Below, in pieces: positions 15,701-21,075 of a stretch of DNA of 64,000 nucleotides. Origin of the DNA: Ilex aquifolium. Its lineage: Eukaryota; Streptophyta; Magnoliopsida; Aquifoliales; Aquifoliaceae. The position numbers and the translations under genes were made by a program. The notes beneath the pieces are model-generated. The model saw nothing but the letters and a program-made list of their open reading frames with translations. It searched no databases and was not told the origin of the DNA. Every line of letters begins with the position of its first letter. Position 1 is the first letter of the stretch. The stretch spans positions 1,685,501 to 1,749,500 of the forward strand of contig OX637394.1 of NCBI GenBank assembly GCA_951799425.1. The letters are read 5' to 3'.

Positions 15701-16317
15701 TTATCGCGCCTAACGGCAAAATTATCAGCCCATAGTAAGCCCAACTGCCTGCTGGCAATCATGCCGGGCTAAACAGGTCAACCCACATGCCGTGTTGAAT
15801 TTGTCGACCATTAGTTATGTAGCAGCCCACGGGGGTGGGCGGTGTCTGGTTGAACATATATGTGACCATTAAACATAAAACATGGTTCTTTTTCACATTA
15901 TTTTATCGATATGCATATGTATGTATCACCAGGTCTTGCCGGCAATAGCCAAGCTATCAAGCAATGTTGTGGTCTTTGTAAACGGCGAATCACATCCATT
16001 TGATACTATTATTTTCGCTACCGGATTCAAAAGATCAACACACAAGTGGCTTAAGGTAATTTTAAAAATACATGAAGATTTAATTTTCTCATCGTACTTG
16101 TCCCTTTTTCAGAAAAATACGATGATTTGAACAATTTTATTTAATTAAACAGGGCGACGATTATCTTCTGGGTGAGGATGGGATTGCAAAGCAAAGCTTT
16201 CCAAACCACTGGAAGGGAGAGAAGGGATTGTACTGTGCTGGACTGTCGAGAAGAGGATTTTATGGAGCTGCCATGGATGCTCAAAACATAGCCAAGGATA
16301 TCAAGATGTTACTGTAA
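12739..16317 (+). CDS. YUC10: YUCCA flavin monooxygenase (YUC10/11-like), indole-3-pyruvate monooxygenase
   Basis: Four exons: 12739-13356, 14638-14871, 15933-16055 and 16153-16317 (TAA), 379 residues; all introns are GT-AG in phase 0. YUCCAs convert indole-3-pyruvate to indole-3-acetic acid using NADPH and O2, the last step of the main auxin pathway. Motifs: FAD-binding GAGTTG (12-17), an ATG-containing motif VVATGET (135-141), the FMO signature [11 protein letters not shown] (155-165), NADPH-binding GSGNSGMEI (180-188), YGDLSKYG in exon 2, and FATGF (312-316). The short N-terminus and the [13 protein letters not shown]-type end (here [19 protein letters not shown]) match YUC10/11, a group I recall as seed- and embryo-expressed. 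The glycine loop is GAGTTG rather than the usual GAGPxG, but its glycines are intact. Intron 1 carries a MITE. No premature stop was found, so the gene looks functional. Confidence 0.95.
13583..13754. mobile_element. MITE, Mutator-like, 172 bp, in YUC10-like intron 1
   Basis: Perfect 9 bp TSD TTTATTTAA at 13574-13582 and 13755-13763. The left TIR is GGGAAATGTTATGTATCCC; the right, reverse-complemented, is GAGCAATGCTATGTATCCC. The arms pair for about 70 bp, including AAATGTGTAACCCAAATTTG and the CCGTTAGATGAATGAGT-type inner motif, leaving a small loop. It lies well inside the intron, away from the splice sites. Confidence 0.85.
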
Positions 16318-16396: not shown

Positions 16397-16402
16397 AATA
16401 AA
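16397..16402 (+). terminator. Possible poly(A) signal AATAAA of the YUC10-like gene
   Basis: AATAAA, 80 bases after the stop codon, is the best near-consensus signal in the 3' flank. Plant signals are loose, so this is tentative. Confidence 0.35.
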
Positions 16403-16684
16403 TTTATCTTTATGTACTCCATTTGGAAGAGTGTCCTCGTAGCTTGTGGTCTGGTTTATGGTTAAAAAGGCCCAAGTTCCTCGACCAACAATAATTTTGT
16501 TACATATCAGTTGTTTGCAGAACGAGTTTTTTTTTTTTTCCTTCTTTTTTCATTATTTGATAGATCTCTATGAGGAGAAGGATAGGTTTAATAAAAGCAT
16601 TACACTCTGAGATTACCATTCTCTAACTTCAAGTGAAGGTGGATTTGACAAACTTGTAGAATCATCCACATACTAATAATAGGC

Positions 16685-17653
16685 GAATCTATTACCAATG
16701 TACAGTTATTTTAAAACATATATACCAAAATACAGCACTTTTAAACTTATTTACCAAAGTACAGCAGTTTTTAAAAGCGGATGTAATAATCCCGCTTTTA
16801 TTAGAAAGCGGATGTAATAATCCGCTTTTATTAGAAAGCGGATTTCGCTTTTTACCCTTTTTCGCGCAACCCAGTTACTCCGGCACTCTCTCTCCTCTCA
16901 TCTCCAAACACACCCAATTCACCATCCTTGACCTCTCCGACGATGATGAAAACATCCGAGCTTTATTCTCCAAAGAAATCAAAGAAGGTGAGGGATTTAA
17001 TCGAAGAAGGTTACATATGGCAGGTTGGTAATGGAGGTGAAATCAAAATCTGGGAGGACAGCCTGGATGCTAGGATATAATCAGATCCCAAATATTAAAC
17101 ACAACTAAGTACTGGGTTGAAGAAATACTGGTCAGGGTTCAACTTCCACGGCCCAATTCCTTCTCTCTCCTCCCTCCCTAATCTCCAATCCCTCTCCCTC
17201 TCCCTCCGATCCAACTCGTTCTCCGGCTCAGTCCCTCCCTCCATAACCACCCTCAAAGCAGTAGTTGTTGTTGTTGCTAAGGGAACCGAAGGTTAGCTAG
17301 GATTCGACGGTTTAACTCAGTTAGAAGTGGTCGAACTCAGTCAAAACTCGCTTTTGTTGAACGAGAATCTGCCCAGGCGTGAAAAGCGTGTTTATGAAAC
17401 ACGTTTTTTACCATTTTTATTAAAATCGTGTTTGGTAAACACGCTTTTCTCACAGCCCAAAATTTTTTTTTTTTTAAAAAGCGGGATTGTTAAATCCGCT
17501 TTCTAATAAAAGCGGGATTATTACATCCGTTTTCTAATAAAAGCGGGATTCTTACATCCGCTTTTAAAAACTGCTGTATTTTGATAAATAAGTTTAAAAG
17601 TGTTGTATTTTGGTATATATGTTATAAAATAGCTGCACATTGGTAATAGATTC
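16685..17653. mobile_element. Pack-MULE-like element with captured LRR gene fragments and a LINE fragment
   Basis: Perfect 10 bp TSD AATAATAGGC at 16675-16684 and 17654-17663. TIRs of about 160 bp begin GAATCTATTACCAATGT at both ends and contain repeated GCGGATGTAATAATCC-type motifs. The non-repeat interior (about 16860-17450) resembles protein-coding DNA on the plus strand: YSGTLSPLISKHTQFTILDL (about 16872-16932), FHGPIPSLSSLPNLQSLSL with NSFSGSVPPSITTLK (about 17142-17262), and GFDGLTQLEVVELSQNSLL (about 17300-17360), all leucine-rich-repeat-like. Between the first two is VRDLIEEGYIWQVGNGGEIK with IWEDS (about 16988-17060), like the C-terminal region of plant LINE reverse transcriptases. 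Stops and frame changes make it non-functional as a protein. No transposase is visible. Confidence 0.75.
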
Positions 17654-17673
17654 AATAATAGGCCCCGAACTTT

Positions 17674-17700
<27 letters not shown>
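17674..17700. repeat. (GA)n microsatellite
   Basis: Uninterrupted GA dinucleotide run immediately 3' of the Pack-MULE-like element. Confidence 0.9.
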
Positions 17701-17705
<5 letters not shown>

Positions 17706-20375: not shown

Positions 20376-21075
20376 ATGGGCTTCAAGGGCGAGCTCTTGG
20401 TGTGCGCAATATTAGAATGTGAAACCATGGAACAAATGTTATCTTCCATGGAGAAAGCAAAGGAAGAAGGTGCAGATTTAGTGGAACTCTGTATAAACTC
20501 CATGTCCTTCTCCCACATTTCTGAGGTTGAACAACTCCTCAAACAGAGAACTCTCCCTGCAATCGTCTCTTTCAGGTACCCTTTTTTTTTTCCTATTTCT
20601 TTTTTCCTTCTCTTTTGACCCCCTAATTACCTAATTTTGTTATGTAAGTGTAAGTCTGCCTTTCCATTCCATCGCTCCTTTCAGTTTCTTTGTTTAGCAC
20701 CATAATGTAATTTGATCCATCTTCCACAACTTGATAATATTATAATTAAAACAATAACAGTAAAGTTCGACAATCTTTTGAGGGACGGGAGTCTGACAAA
20801 GAACTCACATAAGGGAAAAAGAGAACATGAATGTCAAAGGCTTAAAAGGCCCTCACTGCAGCTCTGGCATATAGTTTTTTTTTTTTTTACTGTAAAGGAT
20901 GTTTGGACCATTTTATGCACATTTTGTCTCTAAATTTACAATTTGTCCATGCTACCACTTTGAGGTTCTATGGGATATAGTTCAATCTACTCCCCCTCGG
21001 TCTTTCTTTCACCTGTTTGTTGTTGGTGTTCCTGAAGCAAATAACTGGGGAATCAAAGAACCAAGAAGACACCTG

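Follow-up and report, generated by a model that had tools for sequence, protein, structure and literature searches.

A Pack-MULE of Ilex aquifolium with leucine-rich-repeat cargo broken by a LINE fragment, and the probable stepwise rewriting of its interior

The element and its surroundings

The window, by which we mean the whole 64-kb stretch of Ilex aquifolium DNA that was analyzed (C4:1685501-1749500), contains a transposable element at positions 16685-17653, beyond the end of a YUC-like gene. The first large exon of this gene matches flavin monooxygenases (PF00743 at 1.4e-16, PF13738 at 3.6e-24), and its stop codon ends at 16317. An earlier note on this DNA placed the right border of the element 1.3 kb from the stop, which is correct, but the left border is the nearer one and lies only 367 bases away. 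AATAAA motifs are present at 16397 and 16590, so that two candidate poly(A) signals lie ahead of the element. For an influence of the element on the 3' end of the gene, which the earlier note had suggested, the analysis gave no support. An open frame at 20378-20618 reads like the start of what we take to be a dehydroquinate dehydratase/shikimate dehydrogenase gene. The element is composed of the following parts, where C10, C12, and C19 denote the related loci described below:

16675..16684, no strand: left target-site duplication (TSD) AATAATAGGC, exact 10-bp match
16685..16845, plus strand: left terminal inverted repeat (TIR), 94.4% identical to the right end, inner part with GCGGAT repeats of ~30 bp
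16870..16941, plus strand: leucine-rich-repeat (LRR) fragment 1, covering the N-cap and the first repeat, 65/68 bases as in C19 and 68/68 as in C10
16942..16943, plus strand: two bases GA, matching neither the sister copies nor the LINE match
16944..17140, plus strand: LINE fragment, 95% identical to C12:21765698-21765895, homology extending to 17142
17141..17257, plus strand: LRR fragment 2, without mismatch to C10 across 110 aligned bases (gaps ignored)
17258..17301, plus strand: 44-bp piece of unassigned origin, common to C10 and C12, its left end being the joint of a 387-bp deletion
17302..17365, plus strand: LRR fragment 3, 64 bases with 94% identity to the LRR cargo of C19
17381..17449, no strand: subterminal hairpin with 28-nt arms
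17492..17653, minus strand: right TIR, 94.4% identical to the left end
17654..17663, no strand: right TSD AATAATAGGC, exact match to the left one

The ends of the element (16685-16845 and 17492-17653) were aligned over 162 columns to obtain the identity of 94.4%, and their inner parts consist of tandem units of ~30 bp with GCGGAT and CCGC palindromes. TIRs of ~160 bp lie within the 100-500 bp typical for MULEs, the exact 10-bp duplication lies within the expected 9-11 bp, and fragments of a host gene, the LRR cargo, are found between the TIRs, as is expected for a Pack-MULE. The borders given in the earlier note are correct to the base, and the designation as Pack-MULE-like holds as well: by structure the element is a Pack-MULE with LRR-gene fragments broken by a LINE fragment. 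The longest stop-free frame touching it has 123 codons. Elsewhere in the 64-kb window the TIR, LRR, and LINE pieces do not recur, apart from matches of 13-35 bases. A run of GA dinucleotides is present at 17674-17701, about 10 bases beyond the right TSD.

Sister copies and the LRR cargo

The interior of the element recurs at three other loci. The copy on C12 (L011) has 1016 bp, its own TSD TGATAACGAA, and carries the LINE piece, and the copy on C10 (L009) has 1194 bp and its own duplication of 10-11 bp and is free of the LINE piece. At the third locus on C19 (L010) the left end is present without a matching right end and without a TSD. Since paired right end and TSD are both missing there, C19 may not be a mobile copy. 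The LRR-carrying element at this locus (L010:1174-2307) is cut at its right end, where a second right-type end seems to abut tail to tail. In their common segments, gaps set aside, the window, C12, and C10 copies are 97-100% identical.

The LRR nature of the cargo, which had been proposed from the translations, is evident at the protein level. The uninterrupted cargo of C19 matches PF13855 at 2.1e-12 (in a typed translation in which X replaces both stops) and its longest stop-free stretch matches the same family at 8.2e-9, and the stop-free stretch of C10 matches PF12799 at 3.9e-11. The broken LRR pieces of the window alone reach only 0.023 for PF00560 and 0.061 for PF12799. Furthermore, in the PDB a typed composite query found LRR receptors of plants, with similarity from the N-cap onward, which shows the kind of protein and not the donor gene.

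The LRR fragment of C19 contains two stop codons and no foreign DNA. The C10 copy matches it over 298 columns at 96%, and its reading frame changes shortly beyond the site of the LINE piece. After this LRR stretch C10 continues with a foreign piece, the unassigned 44-bp piece, and the third LRR part. The distance between two LRR anchors is 332 bp in C10 and 95 bp in C19. The start of the foreign piece reads like a MIZ1-like protein, as we presume; a Pfam search of this piece gave no match. Compared with C10, a stretch of 387 bp is missing from the copies of the window and C12, and its flanks are joined without overlap. This loss took the middle of the LRR sequence and the MIZ1-like piece and left the 44-bp piece in place, a remnant that links both copies to an ancestor like C10.

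Origin and timing of the LINE piece

A stretch of 199 bp is situated between CTCTCCGAC and AACTTCCACGG in the copies of the window and C12, which differ from each other at 4/199 of its bases; C10 has AAC at this place. The piece is thus situated between LRR fragments 1 and 2, in the order LRR, LINE, LRR that the earlier note had given. Its best genomic match found is C12:21765698-21765895 with 95% identity, and downstream of this match a broken zf-RVT domain is detected (PF13966 at 4e-8 after two frames were linked through an X spacer; the frames scored separately reach only 0.15 and 0.25). The captured piece itself has no Pfam match. As its genomic match runs on into a broken zf-RVT, the window piece comes from a LINE, from a part upstream of the zf-RVT, and the earlier assignment to a LINE stands on this basis; we take it to be the stretch that follows the reverse transcriptase. 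A LINE fragment in a mixed repeat locus (L012:4699-5766) may be the source of the piece, and the sequence next to it presumably encodes another mobile-element protein.

At the site of the LINE piece C10 and C19 read CTCTC[CA]GACAACAACTTCCACGG uninterrupted. Since both are without the piece and have contiguous LRR sequence there, the piece arrived later than the LRR capture; the comparison of the copies settles this point, for which the earlier note had allowed either order. A LINE that was already inside the LRR donor gene is ruled out, as C10 and C19 have none. The joints are informative as well. Measured against the 95% match, which may not be the donor, the left joint has two extra bases (GA), and the right joint has a 3-base overlap CAA (17140-17142) with LRR fragment 2 and one mismatch three bases before this overlap. 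The piece occupies the place of 3 bp of target and ends upstream of the zf-RVT, and neither a poly(A) nor a target-site duplication, as a LINE insertion would leave, is present. In these respects it is like a filler of break repair.

Three other origins were weighed. Cargo could be gained by fusion of neighboring copies with the chromosomal DNA between them, according to a model in PMC8903248. Neighboring copies do occur if the second right-type end at C19 is read as abutting the cut right end, and for Pack-TYPE elements passages of PMC8903248 report a pattern that would fit a more internal position of newer DNA. However, relics of TIRs are absent at the LINE joints and at the joint of the 387-bp deletion, and the LINE piece sits in the middle of the LRR cargo. 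For the LINE step a neighbor fusion is ruled out by the lack of a TIR relic, and as an account of the cargo in general we consider fusion unlikely. Slightly less probable again is a nested insertion of a 5'-truncated LINE that was trimmed later. The piece is indeed of LINE origin, and coding MULEs of maize and rice commonly contain nested insertions according to passages of PMC3903597, but here TSD and poly(A) are lacking, the piece ends upstream of the zf-RVT, and the target has lost 3 bp. Moreover, the piece has identical ends in the window and in C12, which means that any trimming must predate the split of these two copies. An ordinary LINE insertion is ruled out, with neither TSD nor poly(A). 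Least probable is the capture, by the copies of the window and C12, of an LRR-LINE chimera that already existed as a pseudogene of the host, since the LRR 5' border, the 44-bp piece, and the right side are all shared with C10, which argues for one ancestral element without LINE.

Other cargos and edge scars in the TIR family

Sister elements were sought in the 800-Mb genome, where 40 of 803 candidates were scored; the family sample consists of the best matches to the window element, and all counts refer to the 37 loci of this selected sample. Paired ends with a duplication of 8-11 bp were found in 23/37 loci (18 exact, five with one mismatch), using a pairing pattern that tolerated up to 2 mismatches and displacements of up to 2 bases, and 14/37 have no end pair. 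As pairs with such duplications recur in 23 loci, chance is no explanation for the ends. L022 and L023, whose flanks are the same, represent a single insertion in a duplicated region. In a tree of the TIRs the elements are not cleanly grouped by cargo.

The cargos are diverse. A U-box is present in L018 (PF04564 at 2.1e-16) and L019 (6.8e-16), the interior of L028 is common to L019, and L025 carries a fragment of an ABCB19-like transporter (PF00005 at 2.7e-14; PDB 8woi at 3.1e-111). The cargo of L016 and L020-L023 we take to be PMT-like, that of L024 and L026 BEL1-like, and that of L027 FZR-like. Pfam searches of the BEL1-like and FZR-like cargos gave no match, and that of L016 two irrelevant matches below the cut-off. 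The U-box elements have stop-free frames of 165 codons (L018:1379-1873) and 189 codons (L019:1293-1859) on opposite strands and different TSDs. In L025 an open frame of 283 codons (1239-2087) runs from subterminal sequence through the ABCB19-like fragment, and this chimeric cargo is possibly translatable.

The edges of different elements agree just inside a hinge, CACTTTTTCGCACAA. On their left side L016, L020-L023, and L025 carry the edge of the LRR cargo of C19 over 33-35 bases with 94-100% identity, and it recurs in shorter form at the opposite end of these elements. A different gene lies between leftover edges of the LRR capture in 6/37 loci, which correspond to five insertions. Similarly, 37 bases at the left edge of L018, a U-box element, are found in L027. 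In an ungapped edge test the ABCB/PMT-like pairs and the FZR/U-box pairs reach scores of 21 to 35, with up to 35 bases for ABCB/PMT-like, and none of 200 shuffles exceeded 10; BEL1-like and U-box elements have only 11-14 bases in common, which is close to chance. In this test the edges of the window, C10, and C12 copies score under 8 against L016 or L025, because these copies are without the four bases CTGG near the hinge, and the hinge of C19 is not recognized, so that the link to the C19 edge comes from the separate alignment. As the LRR edge codes for an LRR N-cap, it is probably derived from the gene. L014 and L033, which have different TSDs, have ~116 bases in common just inside the hinge (the comparison ended at 120).

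Serial replacement of the interior

Taken together, the element is probably a non-autonomous Mutator-like element (Pack-MULE) whose cargo was rewritten stepwise between transpositions. It would have started with an LRR-gene fragment without foreign DNA, as in C19, and passed through a state like C10, in which the anchors enclose 332 bp, including the MIZ1-like start, in place of the 95 bp of C19. Subsequently, 387 bp of the C10 arrangement would have been lost and 199 bp, nearly all LINE, would have taken the place of the 3 bp of C10, as seen in the window and C12. The states are those of the copies; the relative timing of the deletion and the LINE step, and the mechanism of repair, we infer. 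A break inside the element may have been filled with a copy of an unlinked template and closed by end joining (gap filling), and the altered copy would then be transposed with transposase from elsewhere. If breaks occurred nearer to the ends, most of the cargo would be exchanged and the old cargo edges would remain beside the TIRs. A wider claim, which we regard as evenly balanced, is that the family acquires genes serially: templated break repair would overwrite the interior, the former cargo edges (LRR, perhaps U-box) would be dated scars beside the TIRs, and the template could be unlinked DNA, even another transposon.

The Pack-MULEs of rice, maize, Arabidopsis, and tomato are alike in having long TIRs, 9-11-bp TSDs, a size of ~1 kb, fragments of host genes, and several copies with different TSDs (passages of PMC3310237). 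Unlike in those, the copies described here keep successive cargo states, including a LINE fragment within the captured gene. Gap-filled and FoSTeST Pack-TIRs of animals also have fillers with short or no microhomology and multicopy forms that were spread by transposition (passages of PMC8277862), but here a plant MULE has several successive fillers in one lineage. In the same passages gap filling is supported for animal TIR elements and proposed for Pack-MULEs, with its application to those of plants left open. In MULEs with multiple or extended TIRs, as outlined in parts of PMC3310237, acquired sequence lies inside the extended TIRs, and C19 has a second TIR as well. Unlike there, the extension here is the recognizable edge of an earlier capture around a different gene. 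Among the MULE-derived putative genes of rice relatives ~5-10% have two or more parents, according to excerpts of PMC4858842. In the literature searched, hardly anything was found on sequential or successive acquisition in Pack-MULEs or MULEs, although such reports may still be in print. The best reading is therefore a known kind of element whose intermediates are unusually clear.

A review of 2026 states in its section 7 that an undiscovered mechanism for the uptake of unlinked gene pieces by Pack-MULEs might exist (PMC13317346, in part). If the serial reading is true, the copy series described here would show this possibly undiscovered route in plants. As the copies differ by single readable changes of their cargo, the question of uptake becomes one of joints, namely of template, microhomology, and order. 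If the donors are found, the family could be used to test gap filling against fusion directly.
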